Shown here: positions 16,803 to 34,359 of the stretch, in pieces | Position numbering within the stretch: position 1 is the first letter of the stretch | Layout of the letters: each line of letters opens with the position of its first letter | Assembly (NCBI GenBank): GCA_945871085.1 | Contig: CAMBVX010000017.1 | Coordinates: 1 to 40,084, forward strand | Source of the DNA: Opitutus sp. GAS368 | GTDB lineage: Bacteria; Verrucomicrobiota; Verrucomicrobiia; Opitutales; Opitutaceae | DNA: 40,084 bases | Direction: 5' to 3' | Notes under the pieces: model-generated | Database searches by the model: none | Seen by the model: the letters and a program-made list of their open reading frames with translations, nothing else | Told to the model about the DNA's origin: nothing | Program-made: the position numbers and the translations under genes

Positions 16803-17966
16803 ATGCCCGAACACTTCCAGCTTCTCAAAACCGACACAGTTACGGCGGCCCGGCGCGCGCGGCTCCGCACGCGTCATGGCATGATCGAGACGCCGATTTT
16901 TATGCCGGTGGGCACGCAGGGCACGGTGAAGTCGCTCACCCCGGCGCATCTCAAGGAGATCGGCGCGCAGATCATTCTCGGGAACACGTATCATCTCAAT
17001 CTGCGGCCCGGCAGCGAACTGGTGCGCGATCTCGGCGGGTTGCACAAATTTATGGACTGGGACGGGCCGATCCTGACGGACAGCGGCGGCTTCCAAGTGT
17101 TTTCGTTGGCGAAGCTCCGCGACATTCGCGATGATGGCGTGGCGTTTCAATCACACCTCGACGGGAAGAAACTGTTCCTCGGTCCGAAGGAGGTCATGGG
17201 GATCCAGCAGAATCTCGGCAGCGACATCGCGATGGTGATCGATGAGTGTCCGCCGTGGCCGTGCGAGCGGGACGATTGCGCGAAGGCGGTCGCGCGCAGC
17301 TACAAGTGGGCGGGGCAGTGTAAGCAGATCGCCACTGACAGTGGGTTTCTCGCGAATGGGCACCATGTGTTTGCCATCGTGCAGGGCTCGACGTTCGACG
17401 ATCTGCGGCGCGAGGCGGCGGAGTCGCTGGCAGCGTTGGATTTTCCCGGCTACGCCGTGGGCGGGGTGAGCGTGGGCGAGCCGGAGCCGGAGATGTTGAA
17501 ACAAGTGGGCGCGACGACGCCGTTTATGCCAGTGGACAAGCCGCGCTACACGATGGGCCTCGGCACGCCGCCGCAGCTCCTGAAGATGGTGGCGCTGGGG
17601 GTGGACATGTTTGACTGCGTGCTGCCGAGCCGCGTCGCGCGCAACGGCCTCGTCTTCACGCCCGACGGGCCGATGAATTTGCGCAACGAAAAGCACCGCA
17701 CCGACGCTAAACCGATTGTCGAAAGCGGCGAGGGCTCGGGCAATTACACGGCGCGTTTCTCGCGAGCCTATCTGCGGCACCTGACGGTCGCGGGAGAGAT
17801 TTTGAGCTGCACGCTGCTGACGCTCCACAATCTCAGTTTCTACCTCGACCTGATGGCGTCTGCTCGAGCGCACATTGAAGCCGGCGACTACGGCCCGTGG
17901 CACCGCGCGTGGATCGAACGTTACGAAACGGGAGCGGCGGCGCGGCTGGCGAACCCTCTGAATTGA
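16803..17966 (+). CDS. tgt: tRNA-guanine transglycosylase lacking the zinc cysteines
   Basis: Tgt exchanges guanine 34 of GUN-anticodon tRNAs for a queuosine precursor. The 387-residue product matches the family throughout. The catalytic base Asp93 lies in LTDSGGFQVFSL, substrate-binding GGVSVGE is at 220-226, and the nucleophile Asp271 is in DCVLPSRVARNG. The family's zinc site CxCxxC, expected near 308-315 (17724-17747), is missing: the segment reads ESGEGSGNYTARFSRAYL, three residues longer than in E. coli. Only the His of the site (His342 in LHNLSFY) remains. PSRVARNG also differs from the usual PTRNARNG. The start is ATG 16803; the frame is open upstream to 16746. An intrinsic terminator follows after 7 bases. 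Confidence 0.9.
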   Translation: MPEHFQLLKTDTVTAARRARLRTRHGMIETPIFMPVGTQGTVKSLTPAHLKEIGAQIILGNTYHLNLRPGSELVRDLGGLHKFMDWDGPILTDSGGFQVFSLAKLRDIRDDGVAFQSHLDGKKLFLGPKEVMGIQQNLGSDIAMVIDECPPWPCERDDCAKAVARSYKWAGQCKQIATDSGFLANGHHVFAIVQGSTFDDLRREAAESLAALDFPGYAVGGVSVGEPEPEMLKQVGATTPFMPVDKPRYTMGLGTPPQLLKMVALGVDMFDCVLPSRVARNGLVFTPDGPMNLRNEKHRTDAKPIVESGEGSGNYTARFSRAYLRHLTVAGEILSCTLLTLHNLSFYLDLMASARAHIEAGDYGPWHRAWIERYETGAAARLANPLN

Positions 17967-25184: not shown

Positions 25185-25934
25185 ATGAATATCGGACTCT
25201 ACCAAAGTGCCTCTGCTCTCTCCGCCTTGGAGCGTTGGCAGGACACGGTGTCCCAGAACATCACGTCGAGCCAGACTTCAGGTTATCGGAAGCGCACCAT
25301 CAATTTTTCCGCCGTGGCCGCCGGTGAGTTGCAGGCCGACCCCAAGGGCCGCATCGGCCACGGGGGCAGTATGCCGATGCTTTTTCCAAAAGTTGAGGGC
25401 GGCATCAATTTTACCCCCGGAGAGACGCAGCCCACGCGGCGCGACCTCGATGCCTCCATTCAAGGCGATGGTTTCTTTGAGATTCAACGTCCGGACGGTT
25501 CCAAAGTTTACACCCGCAGCGGCGAGTTTCGTATGCGGCCGGACCGCACCCTCGTCACGTCCAGTGGCGATGAAGTCATGAACAGCACCGGCTCGTCGAT
25601 TCTCCTCCTGCCGGGCGGCGGCAAGGTCGGCATCAATCAGGATGGCACGATTGTCCAGGGCTCTAGCGCGCTCGGGAAATTTTCCATTCAGAAATTTTCC
25701 GATAACTCCCGGCTCATTCCCATCGCCGGGGGGTTCTTCACCGCCCCGCCGGAAATGAAACCCGAACGCGTGGATGCCCCCGATCTCCTCCAGGGTTATC
25801 TGGAAGGCAGCAACGTCGCGCCGCTGCGCGAAATGGTCGACTTGGTCCTCATTTCCCGCGCCTACGAAGCCAACCAGAAGATCATCACCACGATCGATGA
25901 TCAGATGAACAAGGCGCTCCAAGCCCTCGGTTGA
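25185..25934 (+). CDS. flgF: Flagellar rod protein FlgF (proximal-rod type)
   Basis: This 249-residue protein belongs to the flagellar hook-basal body rod family. The N-terminal rod helix (SASALSALERWQDTVSQNI, then SQTSGYRKRTINF) and the C-terminal helix (REMVDLVLISRAYEANQKII) are diagnostic. The central LDASIQGDGFFEIQRPDGSKVYTRSGEF is shared by FlgF, FlgG and FlgE. I call FlgF because the next gene is a canonical FlgG and this one is shorter and more divergent (NITSSQTSGYR instead of NLANVNTPGFK). It opens the flagellar cluster. A weak AAGGGA precedes the ATG. Confidence 0.85.
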   Translation: MNIGLYQSASALSALERWQDTVSQNITSSQTSGYRKRTINFSAVAAGELQADPKGRIGHGGSMPMLFPKVEGGINFTPGETQPTRRDLDASIQGDGFFEIQRPDGSKVYTRSGEFRMRPDRTLVTSSGDEVMNSTGSSILLLPGGGKVGINQDGTIVQGSSALGKFSIQKFSDNSRLIPIAGGFFTAPPEMKPERVDAPDLLQGYLEGSNVAPLREMVDLVLISRAYEANQKIITTIDDQMNKALQALG

Positions 25935-26085
25935 ACCCGAATCCACCCATGAATTCCCCAGAGAGACAACCGCTAGAATCACGACTGCATGGCCGAGCGC
26001 GCGATGGGGGCGCGCCGGCCTCTTTTGTCGCTCCTCGCTGCGTCTCCGCGTTCACCGCGATCCTCGTTCGACTCCCCCTCGCCAC

Positions 26086-26871
26086 ATGAACCTTTCACTT
26101 TACTCCGCCGCCACCGGGATGGAGGCCCAACAGCTGAATCTGAATACGATCGCGAACAATCTCGCGAACGTGAACACGCCCGGTTTCAAGCGGAGCAAGA
26201 TTGAGTTTCAGGATCTTCTTTATCAGAAGCCCGCGCGCGCCTCCGGCACCGACTCGGGCGGCGGCAATCTTGTCCCCACCGGCGTTGAAGTCGGCAACGG
26301 CGCGCGCGTCGCCGCGACTTCAAAAGTGTTTACGCAGGGCCAACTCCACCAGACCGGCGAAAAACTCGACGTCGCCATCCAAGGCGATGGTTTCTTCGAG
26401 GTGCAGCGGCCCGATGGCACGATTGGTTTCACGCGCGACGGCTCCTTCAAACTTAACGCTCAGGGCCAGGTCGTCACCGTCGACGGTCTTCCGCTGCGCA
26501 GCGGCTTTCAGCCCATCCCGCCCGGGGCCAGTTCGGTGGCCGTCGCGGAAAACGGGCAGGTGACAGTGCAGAGCTCAAACGGGTCACAGACGTTTCGCCT
26601 TACGCTCGCCCGCTTCGCCAACCCCGCCGGCCTCCGCAGTCTCGGCGGAAACCTTTACGAAGAAACCGCCGCCAGCGGCACCCCCGAACTTGGCCAGCCC
26701 GGCGAACAGGGTTTCGGCAGCACTATCCAAGGCTATATCGAGTCCTCCAACGTCAACATCGTCGAGGAGATGGTGAACCTCATTGTCGCCCAACGCGCCT
26801 ACGAGATTAACAGCAAGTCCATCCAGACCTCGGACGAAATGCTCCAGAACGTCGCCGCGATGAAACGTTGA
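26086..26871 (+). CDS. flgG: Flagellar distal rod protein FlgG
   Basis: The 261-residue product is the distal rod subunit, exported by the flagellar type III system. The N-terminus LYSAATGMEAQQLNLNTIAN is followed by NLANVNTPGFKRSKIEFQDL, the family hallmark. QGDGFFEVQRPDGTIGFTRDGSF marks the middle, and the C-terminal helix ends VEEMVNLIVAQRAYEINSKS with IQTSDEMLQ. Length and motifs fit FlgG closely. The 151 bases between flgF and flgG contain no gene. No Shine-Dalgarno sequence precedes the ATG (leader CCCCCTCGCCAC). Confidence 0.95.
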   Translation: MNLSLYSAATGMEAQQLNLNTIANNLANVNTPGFKRSKIEFQDLLYQKPARASGTDSGGGNLVPTGVEVGNGARVAATSKVFTQGQLHQTGEKLDVAIQGDGFFEVQRPDGTIGFTRDGSFKLNAQGQVVTVDGLPLRSGFQPIPPGASSVAVAENGQVTVQSSNGSQTFRLTLARFANPAGLRSLGGNLYEETAASGTPELGQPGEQGFGSTIQGYIESSNVNIVEEMVNLIVAQRAYEINSKSIQTSDEMLQNVAAMKR

Positions 26872-26876
26872 TCACG

Positions 26877-27605
26877 ATGCGTACGCTGCAAAAAATTCTC
26901 CGCTTGGTCCTTGCCGTGCTCGTGCTCGGCGCCGGTGCGGTCTGCGCCGCCGAAGCCTCTGCCTCGACTGCGCTCACTGCGGACAAACTCGTCGCCGCGG
27001 TTGGGCGCGAGCTCACCGCTCACTTTAATCTGGAGGGCGATCTGCAGCTCGAACTCCTGCGTCCGTGGACCCCGCCGAGCCGCGCCGCCGCCGCGTGGAC
27101 CGTCACCGTCGTTGAGTTTCCGTCCGCTGCTTCGTCGGCGCTGCTCGTCCGCGTTCGGTTGTTCGCCGATGGCCAGCCCGTCGCCGCCCCCTCCGATGGC
27201 GCACTCGTGCTCCGCGCTGCGCTGTGGCGCGATGCGTGGGCGGCGCGTCTGCCGCTCACCCTCGGTGGTGCGTTCGATCCCGTCGCCCTCGAGGCTCGCC
27301 GCGTTGATCTCTTCCGCGAACGTGACGTGCTGCCCGCCGCCGTCGGAGACCGCACTTTTATCTTCACCCGCTCCGTCCCGGCCGGTCGCCTGCTCACGTG
27401 GCGTGACATCGCGCGCCGGCCGCTCGTGCGCAAGGGCGATTTTGTCGAAGTCTCGGCCTCCTCTGGTCTCCTCCTCGTCACGATGAAAGCGCAGGCCATG
27501 GAAAATGGTGCGCAGGGCGACACCGTGACCGTCCGCAACCCCGTGTCGCAGAAAAATTTCTCCGCTGTCGTCACCGATGAAAACCGTGTCCAAGTCCGTT
27601 TTTAA
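26877..27605 (+). CDS. flgA: Flagellar P-ring assembly chaperone FlgA
   Basis: The 242-residue exported protein is the periplasmic chaperone for FlgI. The signal peptide is ILRLVLAVLVLGAGAVCAAE. The C-terminal SAF-like domain reads FTRSVPAGRLLTWRDIARRP, then VRKGDFVEV and the closing GDTVTVRNPVSQKNFSAVV, which is the FlgA hallmark. The N-terminal half is divergent, as is common. The start is ATG 26877, 5 bases after the flgG stop; a TTG at 26868 is less likely. The end overlaps flgH by 29 bases. Confidence 0.9.
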   Translation: MRTLQKILRLVLAVLVLGAGAVCAAEASASTALTADKLVAAVGRELTAHFNLEGDLQLELLRPWTPPSRAAAAWTVTVVEFPSAASSALLVRVRLFADGQPVAAPSDGALVLRAALWRDAWAARLPLTLGGAFDPVALEARRVDLFRERDVLPAAVGDRTFIFTRSVPAGRLLTWRDIARRPLVRKGDFVEVSASSGLLLVTMKAQAMENGAQGDTVTVRNPVSQKNFSAVVTDENRVQVRF

Positions 27606-28221
27606 TGCTCGCGGCGGTCGCCGCATCAGGGGTGTCCTCGTGGCGCTGCTCGGCGTGGCGGCGGCGCGTGCCGATTCGCTCTGGCCCGCCACCGGCACAA
27701 GTTCACCGCGCAGTATGTTTGCCGACCGCAAGGCGGCTGCCACCGGCGATATCGTGACGATCGTCGTCGCCGAATCCGCCATCGCCTCGAGTTCGCAAAG
27801 CAAGAAGGCCACCCGCGAGTCCAGCCTCGACGACACGATCAAAAAATTTCTCTATAGCGGACTGGGGGCTAACAAGGGCGAGCTCCCGAATATGGCTTGG
27901 TCCGGGAAATCCTCGTTTTCGGGCGGTGGCGATGTGAGTAATTCGCAGACCCTCGCCGCCCGTGCCGCCGTCCTCGTCACTGATGTCTTACCCAACGGCA
28001 ATCTCGTGATCCAAGGCGTGCGCGTCGTGACGTTCTCCGGCGAAACCCAATACGTCGTCCTCCACGGCATCGTGCGCCGCGACGACATCGCCCCCGACAA
28101 TAGCGTTCAGTCCACCAACATTGCCGACGCCCGGGTCGAGTTTTACGCCGAGGGCGCGCTGACCGACGCGCAAAAACGCGGCTGGCTCGCAAAAATTTTT
28201 GAAAAAGTCCGACCGCTCTAA
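27577..28221 (+). CDS. flgH: Flagellar L-ring protein FlgH without lipobox
   Basis: The 214-residue product forms the outer-membrane L ring. The family core is present: SMFADRKAAATGDIVTIVV, NSQTLAARAAVLVTDVLPNG, LVIQGVRVVTFSGETQYVVL with GIVRRDDIAPDN, and the final WLAKIFEKVRP. FlgH is usually a lipoprotein with a Cys after the signal, but here the N-terminus (VLVALLGVAAARADSLWP) has no Cys and looks like a signal peptidase I substrate. No other ATG restores a lipobox. The ATG lies 29 bases inside flgA, so translation of the two is probably coupled. Confidence 0.93.
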   Translation: MKTVSKSVFNARGGRRIRGVLVALLGVAAARADSLWPATGTSSPRSMFADRKAAATGDIVTIVVAESAIASSSQSKKATRESSLDDTIKKFLYSGLGANKGELPNMAWSGKSSFSGGGDVSNSQTLAARAAVLVTDVLPNGNLVIQGVRVVTFSGETQYVVLHGIVRRDDIAPDNSVQSTNIADARVEFYAEGALTDAQKRGWLAKIFEKVRPL

Positions 28222-28268
28222 ACTCCCCGGGCTTTCGCCAGTAGGATTTGGAACGGATTCCACCGAAC

Positions 28269-29408
28269 ATGATGTTCACCCTGATCAGTCAAACTTCCCT
28301 TCGCCGCTCGCTCGGTCGCGCGTTGCTGACTTTCGTCCTCTGGCACGGGGCCGGGAGTTTTGCCCACGCTTCCCGCGTGAAGGATCTCTCCCTCGTCGAG
28401 GGCGGGCGGGATAACCAACTCGTCGGCTACGGCATCGTCGTCGGGCTCGCGGGCGATGGCGACAGCAGCTCCGCCTCCACGCTGCGCTCCATCGCCAACA
28501 TTCTCCAGCGCTACGGCCTCACGGTCAGCGCCACCGACATCAAGGCCAAGAACGTCGCCGCCGTCATGCTCACGACCGAGATCGGTGCGTTTCTCAAGCC
28601 CGGCGCCAAGATCGACGTCAACGTCGCCTCGATGGGTGATGCCAAATCGTTGCAGGGTGCGGTGCTCCTCCAAACCCCGCTGCTCGGTGCCGACGGTCGC
28701 GTCTACGCCGTCGCGCAAGGCCCGGTCGCCATCGGTGGTTTCTCCGGTGGCGCGGGTGGCGCCGGTGGCTCCACGGTGCAAAAAAACCATCCGACGGTCG
28801 GCAGCATTTCCAGTGGTGCCATCGTGGAGCGCGAAATCCCCGCCGTGTTTGTGCGCGATAACACCGTTCGGCTCCTCCTCCACAATCCCGATTTCACGTC
28901 CGCTTCGCGCATGGCCGACGCGATCAATGCGCAATGGCCGGCAGTCGCGACGCCGGTGGACGCCGCGACCGTCAGTGTCCTGCTCCCGCCGAACTATCGC
29001 GGTCGCGACGTCGCCTTTATTGCGGATCTCGGCCAGATCGAGAGCACGGCCGACACCCTGGCCCGCATCGTGATCAACGAGCGCACGGGCACCATCGTCG
29101 CCACCTCGACCGTGCGTCTCTCCCAAGTGGCCATCGCGCACGGCTCGCTCACCATCACCGTCACCAACCAACAGGGCGTCAGCCAGCCCAACGCGTTCAA
29201 TAACTCCGGTCAGACCGCGACGACGCAGAGCACCCAAACCGCCGTCAACGAGGGCAAAGGTGGCTTTAGCGTCTTGAACGAACCGCCCACGATTGAGCGC
29301 CTCGCCGCCGCCCTCAACGCCCTCGGCGTTTCCACGCGCGAGATGATGGCCATTTTCCAAACCCTGAAGCGCAGCGGAGCGCTCCAGGCCGAACTCGTGA
29401 TCAACTAA
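28269..29408 (+). CDS. flgI: Flagellar P-ring protein FlgI
   Basis: The 379-residue product is the P-ring subunit in the peptidoglycan layer. After the signal peptide it begins SRVKDLSLVEGGRDNQLVGY with GIVVGLAGDGDS, and contains RSIANILQRYGLTV, KNVAAVMLTTEIGAF, NERTGTIVATSTVRLSQVAI and a C-terminal LNALGVSTREMMAIFQTLKR with SGALQAELVIN. All are FlgI signatures and the length is normal. ATG 28269 is used; ATG 28272 is adjacent, and a TTG at 28248 would extend the frame. FlgA chaperones this protein. Confidence 0.96.
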   Translation: MMFTLISQTSLRRSLGRALLTFVLWHGAGSFAHASRVKDLSLVEGGRDNQLVGYGIVVGLAGDGDSSSASTLRSIANILQRYGLTVSATDIKAKNVAAVMLTTEIGAFLKPGAKIDVNVASMGDAKSLQGAVLLQTPLLGADGRVYAVAQGPVAIGGFSGGAGGAGGSTVQKNHPTVGSISSGAIVEREIPAVFVRDNTVRLLLHNPDFTSASRMADAINAQWPAVATPVDAATVSVLLPPNYRGRDVAFIADLGQIESTADTLARIVINERTGTIVATSTVRLSQVAIAHGSLTITVTNQQGVSQPNAFNNSGQTATTQSTQTAVNEGKGGFSVLNEPPTIERLAAALNALGVSTREMMAIFQTLKRSGALQAELVIN

Positions 29409-29412
29409 TTCC

Positions 29413-29814
29413 ATGAACGTCGCCGCTATCACCAATCCTTCGTCGCTGGCGTCGGTCGCCAAACTCGCGGAACTCTCCGGTGGACGCGGAGCGGATGGGG
29501 CCCGCAAGCCGATCACGAGCGCCGCCCTGCGCTCGGCCGATCCCGCCGAACAACGTGCGGCCGTCGCTTCCCAGTTCGAGGCCATCATCGTCCGCCAGCT
29601 CCTCGGCAAGACGATGTCGTCCATGCTCGGCTCCGAAAAATCCGGCCCCGCCGCCAACGTCTACGGTGATATGCTCACCGACGCGTTCGCCCAACAACTC
29701 ACGGCCGGTTCCGGTTTCGGGCTCGGCCGCATGCTCGAGAAACAACTCACGCCGCGCGGCAAAGTCCTTTCGCCGCCCGCGCCACCACCCGACGTTTCCG
29801 CCGCGCAGCCATGA
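29413..29814 (+). CDS. flgJ: Rod-binding protein, FlgJ N-terminal type
   Basis: The 133-residue product carries only the rod-binding domain of FlgJ: ASQFEAIIVRQLLGKTM followed by VYGDMLTDAFAQQLTAGSGFGLG. The C-terminal muramidase domain of the enterobacterial protein is absent, as in many bacteria where another hydrolase clears peptidoglycan for the rod. It caps the rod during assembly. A Pro-rich tail (PPAPPPDVSAAQP) ends the protein. The gene starts 4 bases after flgI and its stop overlaps the flgN start (ATGA). Confidence 0.88.
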   Translation: MNVAAITNPSSLASVAKLAELSGGRGADGARKPITSAALRSADPAEQRAAVASQFEAIIVRQLLGKTMSSMLGSEKSGPAANVYGDMLTDAFAQQLTAGSGFGLGRMLEKQLTPRGKVLSPPAPPPDVSAAQP

Positions 29815-30314
29815 CCACGACGATCCATTGGGAATATCTTGCGGAATGTCTCCGCGGCGAACTGGCGGATTACGGCGGCCTGCTCCATCTTTTCGAGACC
29901 CAGCAGCGCGCCCTCTTCGACCGCGATGCCAGCGTCGTGCTCCACCTGGCGCATGAAATTGAAAAACACGCCCACGCCCTCGTGCAGTCTCGCACTGTCC
30001 GCGAGGAGGCCGTGGCCGCCTTCGCCGTAGAAAATGACCAACCCGCGGCGTCCTCTCTCCGCTCGCTCCTCCCGTTCATCGAGTCCGCCGCGCGCCCGCT
30101 CATCGAGGCGCTGATCAACGAAGTGAATGCGCTCCTGCACCGCGTCCGCCGCACCAGCCGCCACAACCACTCGCTGCTGACGCGTACCGTCGAGACGCAC
30201 CAGGAGACGCTGTCTCTGTTGCGTCCGAACTCCTTCACCAAAACCTATTCGCCCGGCGGCCGGGTCTCCGTCGCGACCGCGCACTCCGCCACGACGCTCC
30301 GCGCTGCGGGCTAG
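29811..30314 (+). CDS. flgN: FlgN-type export chaperone for FlgK/FlgL
   Basis: The 167-residue protein is predicted all-helical with the FlgN layout: a long N-terminal helix (YLAECLRGELADYGGLLHLF), ETQQRALFDRDASVVLHLAH and a central helix ending in EVNALLHRVRRTSRHNHSLL. It sits immediately before flgK and flgL, the substrates of this chaperone. Sequence conservation is low in this family, so position counts for much of the assignment. The last 30 residues are probably unstructured. Confidence 0.75.
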   Translation: MTTTIHWEYLAECLRGELADYGGLLHLFETQQRALFDRDASVVLHLAHEIEKHAHALVQSRTVREEAVAAFAVENDQPAASSLRSLLPFIESAARPLIEALINEVNALLHRVRRTSRHNHSLLTRTVETHQETLSLLRPNSFTKTYSPGGRVSVATAHSATTLRAAG

Positions 30315-30358
30315 CCCGGCTCTCAGCACTTAACTCTCAGCTCTAGCCTCCCCGTCCC

Positions 30359-31777
30359 ATGTCCGGCCTGTTCTCCAGTTTAAGTTCGACCGTCAAAGCG
30401 CTCAATGCGCACGGTCGCGCGCTCGAGACCGCGGGCAAGAATTTGGCCAACGTCAACAACCCGGCCTACGCGCGCCAGCGGGTCCTTTACGGTGATCGCG
30501 GCACGGTCCTCACGCCCACCGGTGCAGAGAGCCTCGGTCTCGAAGCGCTCGGCATCGAGCAGCTCCGTGACTCGCTCGTCGATCGTCAGCTCATGCGGGA
30601 GATTTCGCTGAAATCATCGTTCACGGCCGAACAGGCCGGCTACCAACGCGCGCAGGCCGGCCTCGGCCAGAGCATTAGCGCTGCCGGTGCCACGGACTCC
30701 TCTTCGGCCTCCGGCAACGGTCTCGGTGCGGCCCTCGACCGCCTCTTCACTTCGTTTCAAGGCCTCGCCGCAAGCCCGACCGATGTGGGCGCACGCCAAT
30801 CTCTGCTCCAGACGGCGGCGATTCTCACCGACCGTTTCCAACTCGCCGATACGCGGCTCGCGCAGGTGCAGACCGATCTGGATGCACAGATCACGAGCGA
30901 CGTGAGCAGCGCCAACACGTTGCTCTCGACCATTGCCAGTCTCAACAGCCAGATCGGTCGCTTCGAAGTCAACGCCCCCGGTTCGGCCGTCGACCTCCGC
31001 GATCAGCGTCAGGCCAAACTGGAAGAACTGGCGGCTAAAATCCCCGTCGAGCTACACGATGTCGCCGGTGGGCAAGTCCAAGTCGTCGCCAAAGACGGCG
31101 CGGGTGCCGATGTCATTTTGGTCGACTTGGCCACGGTGCAAGGCCCGGTCGCTTTCGACGGCACCCAGCTCCTCGCGGGCACTCCCGCCACTCCGCTGGC
31201 ACTAGCTGCCGGTGCCATCAAAGGTTCGCTCACGGCGCGCGACGGCGCGGTGCAGGCGCTCCGGAGTAACCTCGACCTGCTCGCCCGTCAGCTCGTCACG
31301 TCCCTCAACGCCGCCTACAATCCCACGGGTGCGACCGGTGATTTTTTCCGCGCCACCGGAGTGACCGCCGGCACCATTCGGCTCGAGGCGGCCGTGACCA
31401 CCGTCAGTCTCAAGGCGAGCGATGGCGGCGCGGCGGGCGACAACACGATCGCCCTTGCCATCGCGCAACTCGCCACCCGCCCGTTTTCCACCGCGGGCGC
31501 GCCGCCCGATGTCATCGACGGCACGCTCGGGAGTTTTTACAGCAACGCGGTCAGCGACCTCGGTCAGGCCCTCGCTGGCGCGAACGCTCGCGTGGATGAT
31601 CAGGACAATATCGAGCGCCTCGTCCGTTCTCAGCGCGATTCGATCAGCGGAGTTTCACTCGATGAGGAGATGGCCGACCTCTTGAAATACCAACGCGCCT
31701 TCCAAGCATCCTCTCGTGTGTTCGGCGTCGTGGACGAACTCCTCGACCTCGTCGTCAACCGTCTCGGTCGCGGCTGA
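30359..31777 (+). CDS. flgK: Hook-filament junction protein FlgK (HAP1)
   Basis: The 472-residue product links hook and filament. The N-terminus LFSSLSSTVKALNAHGRALE followed by TAGKNLANVNNPAYARQRV and the C-terminal DNIERLVRSQRDSISGVSLD followed by EEMADLLKYQRAFQASSRVF are the terminal helices of FlgK. The internal stretch INSQIG-type (ASLNSQIGRFEV), then DLRDQRQAKLEELA, is also diagnostic. The variable middle is short compared with enterobacterial FlgK. It is followed directly by flgL. Confidence 0.94.
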   Translation: MSGLFSSLSSTVKALNAHGRALETAGKNLANVNNPAYARQRVLYGDRGTVLTPTGAESLGLEALGIEQLRDSLVDRQLMREISLKSSFTAEQAGYQRAQAGLGQSISAAGATDSSSASGNGLGAALDRLFTSFQGLAASPTDVGARQSLLQTAAILTDRFQLADTRLAQVQTDLDAQITSDVSSANTLLSTIASLNSQIGRFEVNAPGSAVDLRDQRQAKLEELAAKIPVELHDVAGGQVQVVAKDGAGADVILVDLATVQGPVAFDGTQLLAGTPATPLALAAGAIKGSLTARDGAVQALRSNLDLLARQLVTSLNAAYNPTGATGDFFRATGVTAGTIRLEAAVTTVSLKASDGGAAGDNTIALAIAQLATRPFSTAGAPPDVIDGTLGSFYSNAVSDLGQALAGANARVDDQDNIERLVRSQRDSISGVSLDEEMADLLKYQRAFQASSRVFGVVDELLDLVVNRLGRG

Positions 31778-31800
31778 TGCCGGCCCGCCGCTTTTCTCCC

Positions 31801-32697
31801 ATGCGCATTTCCACTCACACGGTTTCCGATAACATTGTCCGTCAGATTCAGCAGCTCAGCAGCCAGCAGGCGAAGTTGCAGCAGCAAGTCGCGACCGGCC
31901 AGCGCATCGCCGAACCCGAAGACGATCCCGCCGCGGTCGGTCGCGTCCTCAACCTGGAGAGTGAGCAACGCCAGCTCGCGCAGTTTCAAGCCAATGCCTC
32001 CCGCGCGCTGGAACTCAGCCAGGCCTCTTATTCCGGGCTGCGCGCGATCAAGAAAGTTTCCGACCGCGCGACTGAGATCGGCACCCTCGGTGCCGGCGCC
32101 ATCAATCCCGCGTCCGCCCGCGCCTACGCGTCCGAGTTGAATCAGCTCATCGAACAAACAGTCCAGCTCACGAACAGCCGTTTCGGCCACGACTATCTTT
32201 ACGCGGGCACCGCGGTCGGCTCGCCACCCTTCGTCGCCACCCGCGACGCCGCCGGTCAACTCACTTCGGTCGCTTATGCCGGTGATTCCGCGCGCGCCGC
32301 CATCCCGTTGTCCGAAGCGACCAACCTCGCGCCGAACACCGACGGCCCGACCAATCTCGGCCTCCGCGATTTCGTCAACCAGCTCGTCGCCCTCCGCGAC
32401 GCGCTGCAAATTAACAGCGCGACGGGCGTGACGGCTGCGCAGACCGACCTCATCACGACCGAGGATCTGCTCGTTTCCTCGATCGCGGAGCACGGCGGGG
32501 TGCAGACCCGCATTCAAGCCACGCAAGCCCAGCTTTCTGATCGGGCGGTGGGCCTTCAGTCGCTCGTATCTAACGAGACCGAGGCCGATCTGCCCTCGAC
32601 CATCGTCAAACTCAACCAGACTCAGACCGCCTATCAGGCCGCGCTCCAGTCGGCCGCGAACGTCATGAAAATCTCGCTCCTCGATTATATCCGCTAA
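31801..32697 (+). CDS. flgL: Hook-filament junction protein FlgL (HAP3)
   Basis: The 298-residue product has the flagellin-like N-terminal helix MRISTHTVSDNIVRQIQQLS, QQAKLQQQVATGQRIAEPED with DPAAVGRVLNLESE, and a C-terminal helix with LVSNETEADLPSTIVKLNQT then QTAYQAALQSAANVM. The ATG at 31801 is chosen; an in-frame ATG at 31777 overlaps the flgK stop and would add eight non-homologous residues. The internal stretch SRFGHDYLYAGT is typical of FlgL (F..YL.AG). Confidence 0.92.
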   Translation: MRISTHTVSDNIVRQIQQLSSQQAKLQQQVATGQRIAEPEDDPAAVGRVLNLESEQRQLAQFQANASRALELSQASYSGLRAIKKVSDRATEIGTLGAGAINPASARAYASELNQLIEQTVQLTNSRFGHDYLYAGTAVGSPPFVATRDAAGQLTSVAYAGDSARAAIPLSEATNLAPNTDGPTNLGLRDFVNQLVALRDALQINSATGVTAAQTDLITTEDLLVSSIAEHGGVQTRIQATQAQLSDRAVGLQSLVSNETEADLPSTIVKLNQTQTAYQAALQSAANVMKISLLDYIR

Positions 32698-32709
32698 CCC
32701 ATCCGCTCC

Positions 32710-33183
32710 ATGAAAGTCCTCCCCGAACTCTATCCGACCGATTTCGATACGCCCCCCGCGAACGAAATTATTCTCCCCCAGGGCCTCATCGGCTTTGCGG
32801 CCTACAAGCGGGCCGAGCTGCTCTACTTGCCGGACCACCTCCCGTTTCTCTGGATGAAGCTGAGCAATCCCGACACGGCTGATATCCTCCACTTTATTGT
32901 GATCGAGCCCGGTGGCATCGTGCCCGGTTACGAACCCGAGATTTTCGACCAAGACATCGAGCAACTCGGCATCACGAATCCGGCGGAGGCGATGATCATC
33001 AATATCGTCACCCTGCAGCGCCAGACGCCCGTCGAGGCCACCGCCAATCTCATCGGTCCCCTCGTCGTCAACCGGCGCACGCGCACCGGCCGCCAGCTCG
33101 TGATTTCCAATTACTCCCGCTACAGCGCCCACCACTCCCTCGTCGAGCATTCGCAGGCGGCCACGGTCGTCAGCACAACCTGA
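32710..33183 (+). CDS. fliW: Flagellar assembly factor FliW
   Basis: The 157-residue product is FliW, which binds both flagellin and CsrA. Signature stretches are [59 protein letters not shown] and [18 protein letters not shown]. In the known switch, free flagellin titrates FliW away from CsrA, so CsrA represses flagellin translation until secretion relieves it. The order fliW-csrA-fliC here has all three partners adjacent. The gene ends 7 bases before csrA. Confidence 0.95.
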
Positions 33184-33190
33184 GCCCACC

Positions 33191-33439
33191 ATGCTCGTCC
33201 TCTCCCGCAAAATTAACGAGTCGATCGTCATCGGCGACAATATCGAGATCCGCATCACGCGCATCGAAGGCGATGTGGTGAAGATCGGGATCGAAGCGCC
33301 GCGCGACATCGCGATCTTCCGCAAGGAAGTGCTCACCGCCATCGCCGCGAGTAACCATGCCGCTGCGGTGCGCGCCCCGAAGCCCGGTACACTGCCGGTG
33401 CTTTTGCCCAAACCCGCCGCCGCCATTGCGCGGTCCTGA
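33191..33439 (+). CDS. csrA: Carbon storage regulator CsrA with extended tail
   Basis: The 82-residue RNA-binding protein has the CsrA core [20 protein letters not shown] with Arg6 and [15 protein letters not shown] with Arg44 (Phe43 replaces the common His), the residues that hold GGA-containing RNA. It has a tail of about 25 Ala/Pro-rich residues ([13 protein letters not shown] onward), longer than the 61-residue E. coli form. FliW-regulated CsrA proteins depend on a C-terminal extension for allosteric control. It lies between fliW and fliC. The fliC leader contains no GGA motif (see findings). Confidence 0.96.
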
Positions 33440-33480
33440 AGTCTTCCCGCCCCCTCGTCACCTTTTAGCCCTCCACCTCC

Positions 33481-34359
33481 ATGAGCGTCATCAACACCAA
33501 TATCCAAGCCATCGCCGGCGCCCGCAACCTGAACCACAGTCAGGAAATGCTCGGCCGTTCCATCACCCGCCTCTCCTCCGGTTCGAAGATCGTCAACCCG
33601 TCCGACGATGCCGCCGGTCTTGCGGTCTCCGAAAAACTCGATGCTCAGGGGAAGCGCGTCAAAGCCGCCACCACCAACGTCCAGAACGCCGTCTCCTACG
33701 TCCAGACCGCCGATGGCTTCATGAGCGGCATGACGAAAATTCTCTCGCGGATGAGCGAGCTCGGCATTCTCGCCAAAGACGTCACCAAGAACTCGAGCGA
33801 CGTTGACCTCTACCAGCAGGAGTTCACGGCATTGCAGGACCAACTTCGCGCCACCATTGGCGGCGACACCACCGAGATTGGCGGCACGACGGGCGTGACG
33901 ACGCCGCTCGGTGCCTTTAATGGCATCACGCTCTTTGGGGCCAACGCCACCGGTCTCTCGGTGACGATCGGCCAAGCCGTCGGTCAGGATATGACGATTA
34001 ACGAGTCCAATTTGCGCAGTGGCGCGATGCTGGAGATCATCAATCAGGATGGGGCGGGTGCTTATACGCTCCTGTCCTCCGACAGTGACGCGATTCAGAA
34101 AATCACCGATTCGATCCAGCACGTCGCCTCGGAGCGCGCCACGTTGGGTGCCGCGCAGTCCCGCCTCGAGCTGGCGGCGACGACGTTGCAGGTTGAATAC
34201 GAAAATCTTTCCTCGGCCATCTCGCGGATCCGCGACGTCGATGTCGCGGAGGAGTCCACGCAATACGCGAAATACAACATCCTCGTGCAGTCCGGCACCG
34301 CGATGCTCGCGCAGGCCAATCAAACGCCGCAAAGCGTGCTCAAGCTGCTGCAAGGCTGA
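33481..34359 (+). CDS. fliC: Flagellin FliC, compact form
   Basis: The 292-residue product is the filament subunit. The D0/D1 N-terminus SVINTNIQAIAGARNLNHSQ, RLSSGSKIVNPSDDAAGLAV and the C-terminal SRLELAATTLQVEYENLSSA, then ISRIRDVDVAEESTQYAKYN with ILVQSGTAMLAQANQTPQSV, are canonical. The middle is only about 100 residues, so it has little or no outer D2/D3 domain; the filament should be thin and smooth. The leader CCCTCCACCTCC is a pyrimidine tract with no Shine-Dalgarno sequence. No sigma-28 promoter is visible upstream, so transcription may come from csrA or further up. Confidence 0.97.
   Translation: MSVINTNIQAIAGARNLNHSQEMLGRSITRLSSGSKIVNPSDDAAGLAVSEKLDAQGKRVKAATTNVQNAVSYVQTADGFMSGMTKILSRMSELGILAKDVTKNSSDVDLYQQEFTALQDQLRATIGGDTTEIGGTTGVTTPLGAFNGITLFGANATGLSVTIGQAVGQDMTINESNLRSGAMLEIINQDGAGAYTLLSSDSDAIQKITDSIQHVASERATLGAAQSRLELAATTLQVEYENLSSAISRIRDVDVAEESTQYAKYNILVQSGTAMLAQANQTPQSVLKLLQG

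Follow-up and report, generated by a model that had tools for sequence, protein, structure and literature searches.

Can a tRNA-guanine transglycosylase (Tgt) work without its structural zinc? In the solved Tgts, as described in passages of PMC6165067, the ion is held by three cysteines and a helix-borne histidine, and this Cys3His site is there called a hallmark of the enzyme. The Tgt encoded in the window, the whole 40,084-nucleotide stretch of Opitutus sp. GAS368 DNA analyzed here, lacks all three cysteines. From sequence comparison, we consider it likely that this protein is a functional Tgt, predicted to exchange guanine for preQ1 at position 34 of GUN-anticodon tRNAs without structural zinc, a base exchange that would be the committed step of queuosine synthesis. 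The prediction is based on membership of the Tgt family, the catalytic, pocket and dimer-contact residues, the lack of cysteine ligands, inheritance throughout the order in the sequences read, purifying selection and the presence of later pathway genes in genomes with a single Tgt.

The zinc segment of the window Tgt

The protein scores 448.9 bits against TIGR00430, above the curated equivalog cut-off of 306.75 that defines the bacterial Tgt family, and 482.2 bits against PF01702. The archaeosine TgtA model TIGR00432 gives 122.4 bits against a cut-off of 350, and the window Tgt has cysteine and valine at the positions where eukaryotic queuine-type (QTRT1) enzymes have Val158 and Gly233. Of the CxCxxC-plus-His signature of zinc-type Tgts, which stands apart from the curated TIGR00430 cut-off, the histidine alone is kept; we take it to be His349 in Zymomonas numbering. 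The closest named records are those of Opitutales bacterium AM_1503 (88%), Opitutaceae bacterium bin26 (86%) and a groundwater Verrucomicrobia MAG (84%). Elsewhere in the window, a run of flagellar genes was recognized by eye at 25185-34359; from their motifs, we presume these to be FlgF/FlgG-like, FlgA, FlgH, FlgI, FlgK, FlgL, FliW-like and a short flagellin of 292 aa.

Table 1. Features of the window Tgt, at window positions, and the second Tgt of the same genome, at positions of its own locus.
Feature	Position	Strand	Basis
tgt, non-fused zinc-free tRNA-guanine(34) transglycosylase, 387 aa, ATG start	16803..17966	+	TIGR00430, PF01702, dN/dS
Asp93 (catalytic Asp102)	17079..17081	+	alignment
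Cys149 (Cys158), bacterial preQ1-type pocket residue	17247..17249	+	alignment; role from passages of PMC3660597
GGVSVGE pocket motif, Val233 (V224 of the window Tgt) kept, Ser232	17460..17480	+	alignment
Asp271 (nucleophile Asp280)	17613..17615	+	alignment
ESGEGSGNYTARFS, segment standing in for the CxCxxC zinc knuckle, aa 307-320	17721..17762	+	phmmer and 258-row alignment
Asn314 at the Cys320 position	17742..17744	+	Asn in 100/101 Opitutales Tgts, Cys in 106/106 canonical Tgts
F319 to H326, with dimer contacts F319/Y323/H326 (W326, Y330, H333)	17757..17780	+	alignment; hot spot from passages of PMC5395182
His342, sole zinc ligand retained	17826..17828	+	alignment; His in 101/101 Opitutales Tgts
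Fused Tgt, 676 aa, intact CDCHAC and catalytic residues, C-terminal Methyltransf_30 (MnmC2-like) domain	L002 568-2595 (G000:C199)	-	profile searches

In the 258-row alignment, the three columns that are Cys, Cys and Cys in canonical Tgts read Ser, Asn and a gap in the window Tgt, and both catalytic aspartates (Asp93 and Asp271) are in place. This bears out the sequence-only reading, which described a canonical Tgt without its CxCxxC site. The same reading counted three extra residues at the site; ESGEGSGNYTARFS is indeed three residues longer than the corresponding segment of most Opitutaceae relatives, but only two longer than that of Zymomonas-type PDB sequences in the phmmer alignment. An assembly or frame error as the source of ESGEGSGNYTARFS is ruled out, because a segment of the same length and of identical or nearly identical sequence recurs in five other genomes of the genus in which a non-fused Tgt was read (G026, G067, G091, G129 and G146).

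The pocket motif GGVSVGE had been taken for a mixture of bacterial and eukaryotic forms. That remark falls, because Ser232 is the common bacterial state, shared by 100 of the 106 canonical zinc-type Tgts. Passages of PMC3660597 likewise note serine at this position in many bacterial Tgts and consider a contribution to specificity unlikely; they report an Ala232Ser mutant of the Zymomonas Tgt that is about 100-fold slower, and they attribute substrate use in bacterial Tgts largely to Cys158 and Val233, for which eukaryotes have valine and glycine.

Distribution of the missing site

The first description implied an oddity of one protein; the site is instead missing across whole groups. Among non-fused Tgts, meaning those without an MnmC2-like domain (some in open frames of up to 638 aa), none of the 101 read from Opitutales has the full CxCxxC: 0/87 from family genomes (window included), 0/11 from four other families (L225-L235) and 0/3 from named relatives (L095-L097). 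The second-cysteine column is asparagine in nearly all of them (Table 1), and many retain the third cysteine. Among the matches listed, 143 of 150 family genomes have a Tgt match; the family loci were read starting with the 30 top-scoring ones and then by choice among the matches listed, not at random, and order genomes G241, G257 (no match), G268 and G292 were left unread.

The full site is also missing in 14 Verrucomicrobiales rows (6 named, 8 class-mates), a few of which still have one cysteine, in 13/13 Bacteroidota rows (Chitinophaga, Algoriphagus, Chryseobacterium and others) and in L112, which lies beside Opitutales in the tree. Five of the 14 Verrucomicrobiales Tgts (L236, L237, L242, L243 and L244), clustering with Akkermansiaceae, have glutamine in place of the histidine ligand as well. 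Five others (L101, L102, L103, L104 and L238) keep the histidine and have HPH at the old knuckle, which might form a different metal site. Some genomes take their order, class and Verrucomicrobiales labels from group codes and tree position, with L242 and L244 outside the tree. A further 106 non-fused Tgts, including every row read with a Firmicutes, Proteobacteria or Kiritimatiellae title, have the full site, as do 23 fused Tgts.

The sequence set comprised 265 entries (264 loci and the window), of which 258 rows were aligned. L093, L094 and L194 were dropped as QueA loci; L100 and L262, in which no ORF carries the search motif, are outside all counts; L001 and L002, duplicates of the window and L193, were left out of the alignment; and L265-L279 are outside alignment and tree.

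Number of losses

Trees of 132 and 62 rows, both quick searches with SH-aLRT support only, were built without the zinc columns. On the 132-row tree, the state of the zinc site needs to change three times, and the same holds on the 62-row tree. A single clade of all zinc-free rows is rejected on the latter (p-AU 1.2e-5), as is one origin for Opitutales and Bacteroidota (p 5e-10), while one origin for Opitutales and Verrucomicrobiales is unrejected (p 0.228); support for the Verrucomicrobiales group is weak at 82 in the 132-row tree and 38 in the 62-row tree. The results of these three comparisons support at least two independent losses of the zinc site, and the best tree would have three. A single zinc-free ancestor for all zinc-free Tgts, followed by spread through transfer, is in our view highly improbable: the unrejected common origin within Verrucomicrobiota would suit such a history, but the two rejections contradict it, and the Bacteroidota Tgts cluster with two zinc-type rows, one of them from Ignavibacteriales.

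Within Opitutales, the third cysteine column changes nine times among the 43 rows of the 132-row tree. We infer a stepwise loss, in which the first two cysteines would have gone at the base of the order, the third would have changed repeatedly afterwards, and the three extra residues would have been added near the genus of the window.

Catalytic residues, selection and fold

Residues D102, S103, D156, Q203, V233, E235, M260 and D280 (Zymomonas numbering) are invariant in 101/101 Opitutales Tgts, and C158 is present in 100/101. The dimer hot spot, which passages of PMC5395182 describe as Phe92 with Trp326, Tyr330 and His333 of the mate subunit, reads Phe, Phe, Tyr and His in all 101; canonical Tgts, too, most often have phenylalanine at 326 (69/106). 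Tyr330 is replaced by alanine in 3 of the 14 Verrucomicrobiales rows (L236, L242 and L243). The window Tgt is under strong purifying selection: dN/dS is 0.026-0.059 in comparisons with four genus-mates and 0.076-0.081 in those with Tgts from two other genera.

An AlphaFold2 model of the window Tgt has a mean pLDDT of 92.1, and of 91-93 over residues 301-320, values to be read with the fact that the program can yield the native fold of a metal-requiring protein and that the alignment supplied held zinc-free rows only (52). The model has an ordinary Tgt fold, superposing on the Zymomonas structure 1pud with a Z score of 53.4 and 1.4 Å over 368 residues; its best structural match is 1q2r (Z 53.9). 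Two helices come after the old knuckle: a short one (321-329), which bears the dimer contacts Y323 and H326, and a long one (333-360), which bears H342. The helices are unchanged in Opitutales, and the Asn and Tyr at the knuckle turn are nearly invariant (100/101 each). This Asn-Tyr turn, at the old Cys320 site and next to the helix carrying the dimer contacts, may be tied in place by packing and hydrogen bonds instead of the metal, in an enzyme that would dimerize and be active. If zinc-free Tgts do dimerize, Tgt dimers cannot generally depend on zinc.

Could a metal still be bound through other residues, either His342 together with newly recruited ligands or a Cys/His cluster that has arisen elsewhere? 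We consider this unlikely. His342 is retained throughout Opitutales, where C154 (94/101), C159 (86/101), C173 (91/101) and H187-H188 are common (range 86 to 94), and several Verrucomicrobiales have the HPH noted above. However, C154, C159 and C173 all vary among the 101, and canonical Tgts, too, often have C154 and C173; position 336, near His342, is cysteine in only 54/101, and the histidine itself has given way to glutamine in the five Verrucomicrobiales Tgts. The proviso of the sequence-only reading, that cysteines elsewhere in the fold might take over as ligands, likewise finds no support in cysteine conservation across the 101 Opitutales Tgts: only C149 and C272 are kept in at least 100 of them, and obvious replacement ligands are rejected, since both cysteines are present in canonical Tgts too.

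Zinc is therefore probably dispensable for Tgt, given that the cysteines are missing order-wide in the sequences read and that a separate loss occurred in Bacteroidota. Counting against zinc-independence, passages of PMC9508795, citing Chong 1995, state that the E. coli Tgt needs zinc for activity.

The queuosine pathway and a second Tgt

The genome of the window encodes two Tgts. It had been proposed that a second, zinc-containing Tgt carrying out the reaction would dispose of the case; such an enzyme does exist, fused to a methyltransferase domain and with a CDCHAC site (Table 1), but it does not explain the window Tgt, because 60 family genomes have a zinc-free Tgt as their only Tgt among the matches listed. 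With its zinc site and catalytic residues intact, the fused enzyme could in principle make the queuosine of this genome while the window copy decays or serves another purpose. This is quite unlikely in view of the 60 relatives, all with QueA, the strong purifying selection on the window Tgt and the invariant catalytic residues in Opitutales; moreover, just 46 of the 150 family genomes show the strong PF05430 match that marks the fused type.

Our preferred reading, a working zinc-free Tgt, agrees with the later pathway genes to differing degrees. QueA is present in 142/150 family genomes and in 60/60 of those in which the single Tgt among the matches listed was read as zinc-free (completeness is 90% or more and contamination 5% or less in 55 of the 60, and 7 are single-contig). 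QueA beside a zinc-free Tgt is weak evidence because the gene is near universal, occurring also in 6 of the 7 family genomes without a Tgt among the matches listed. Stronger than the QueA test is the evidence of QueF and of QueG or QueH in eight genomes, namely that of the window and the seven single-contig genomes with a single Tgt: QueF is found in 8/8, QueC in 8/8 (strong in seven, weak matches in G051) and an epoxyqueuosine reductase in 8/8, this being QueG in seven. A QueH search of the same eight genomes found it in G049 alone. In that single-contig genome, QueH stands in for QueG, a clean swap of epoxyqueuosine reductases.

Outside Opitutales, 18 genomes (12 Bacteroidota and 6 Verrucomicrobiales, from 19 named loci sought) have one full-length Tgt each, two of them with additional partial, weaker Tgt matches, and QueA is present in 17. 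Passages of PMC11130926 describe Akkermansiaceae and some Bacteroides as typically able to synthesize queuosine, judging by their genomes.

The fused Tgt

The methyltransferase domain of the second Tgt scores 43.8 bits against PF05430, above the cut-off of 22, and is the sole match to this profile in the genome; on the stricter NCBIfam MnmC2 model, the same protein reaches 57.8 against a cut-off of 136. Recent duplication is ruled out, as the two Tgts share 44% identity and the 12 fused Tgts of the 132-row tree fall into a single starred group, which a branch of 1.2 changes per column sets far apart from the non-fused Tgts. Contamination is ruled out as well, with genus-mates G067 and G091 carrying a copy that is 93% identical. 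By sequence, the fused Tgt is a distant enzyme, either separately acquired or old.

Fused Tgts with a full zinc site (L002, L175-L192, L277 and L278) occur in roughly one in three of the Opitutaceae-family genomes searched. PF05430 matches are present in 47/150 family genomes and are strong in 46, in 44 of which they fall in open frames of at least 637 aa. In all 21 strong-match genomes for which Tgt coordinates are also listed, the match shares contig and strand with the Tgt match and lies just downstream of it; five more PF05430 matches, with E values of 4e-6 to 5e-4, are weak and lie elsewhere. The methyltransferase half conserves WDVGLGAASNAM and DPFSxKTD, apart from L182, where it is frameshifted, and L190, where it is cut off. 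In L182 (4644-6533, + strand, G052), this half runs out of frame from just before the glycine motif and its PF05430 match lies in another open frame, a possible frameshift in the fused gene. A search of PDB sequences with the methyltransferase half returned only weak matches, to YfcK/MnmC and MnmC2 (E 0.058 and 0.1), and the structure of the fused protein is predicted with middling confidence (pLDDT 78.8, pTM 0.56).

The wobble base nm5U34 is methylated by MnmC2 on its aminomethyl group, and preQ1 has an exocyclic aminomethyl group of its own. These two facts make preQ1 methylation an attractive idea, which we put forward tentatively as a doubtful one: by analogy, the two active sites of the fused Tgt might place preQ1 at position 34 and then methylate its aminomethyl group, giving 7-(methylaminomethyl)-7-deazaguanosine as a branch of the queuosine pathway, beside a zinc-free Tgt feeding ordinary queuosine. 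If true, this would add a new nucleoside to those of the wobble position. G140 (95% complete; L277, G140:C54:10000-14500) would fit this idea, because the fused zinc-site Tgt is its only Tgt among the matches listed and QueA was not found there. Across the family, the fused type is not clearly enriched where QueA is missing (3/8 genomes without QueA vs 43/142 with it), and plain coupling of two enzymes acting on the wobble base would also explain the fusion.

Comparison with known systems

Among the titles and abstract openings of open-access papers searched, we found no report of a zinc-free Tgt, and the site is called conserved there; curated databases may already treat zinc as optional. The zinc-free Tgt may thus be a variant of a known enzyme that is apparently unreported in that literature. 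The same titles and abstract openings yielded no report of a Tgt-methyltransferase fusion, which curators may know. If whole lineages do use a zinc-free Tgt, zinc is in them a replaceable structural aid, and the link between metal and queuosine drawn for E. coli need not extend to Bacteroidota, Opitutales and Verrucomicrobiales. Tgt would then offer a natural series for the giving up of a structural metal, from proteins with the third cysteine kept, through those with no cysteine and those with no cysteine and an insert, to the five from Verrucomicrobiales in which the histidine is gone too.

Zinc-independent paralogues of zinc enzymes have been described, with QueD named among them in passages of PMC2770081. 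Like these paralogues, the window Tgt is the zinc-free version of an enzyme that has been described as needing zinc. It differs in being the standing enzyme of its lineage, a role as low-zinc back-up being unsupported here, and those passages name QueD, not Tgt.

With the Tgt of Zymomonas mobilis (1pud), the window Tgt shares the fold over nearly its full length, Asp102 and Asp280, Cys158 and Val233, and the contacts Phe92, Tyr330 and His333, but it lacks the zinc cysteines, has phenylalanine for Trp326 and has a knuckle that is longer by the two residues given above. The Tgts of Bacteroidota, such as those of Chryseobacterium (L170) and Algoriphagus (L128), are like the window Tgt in that the full CxCxxC is missing in every row, and theirs is the only full-length Tgt in the 12/12 genomes searched (a set that does not include the genome of L128). 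They differ from it in the residues at the site, where two of the 13 rows still have the second cysteine, and in having lost it separately.
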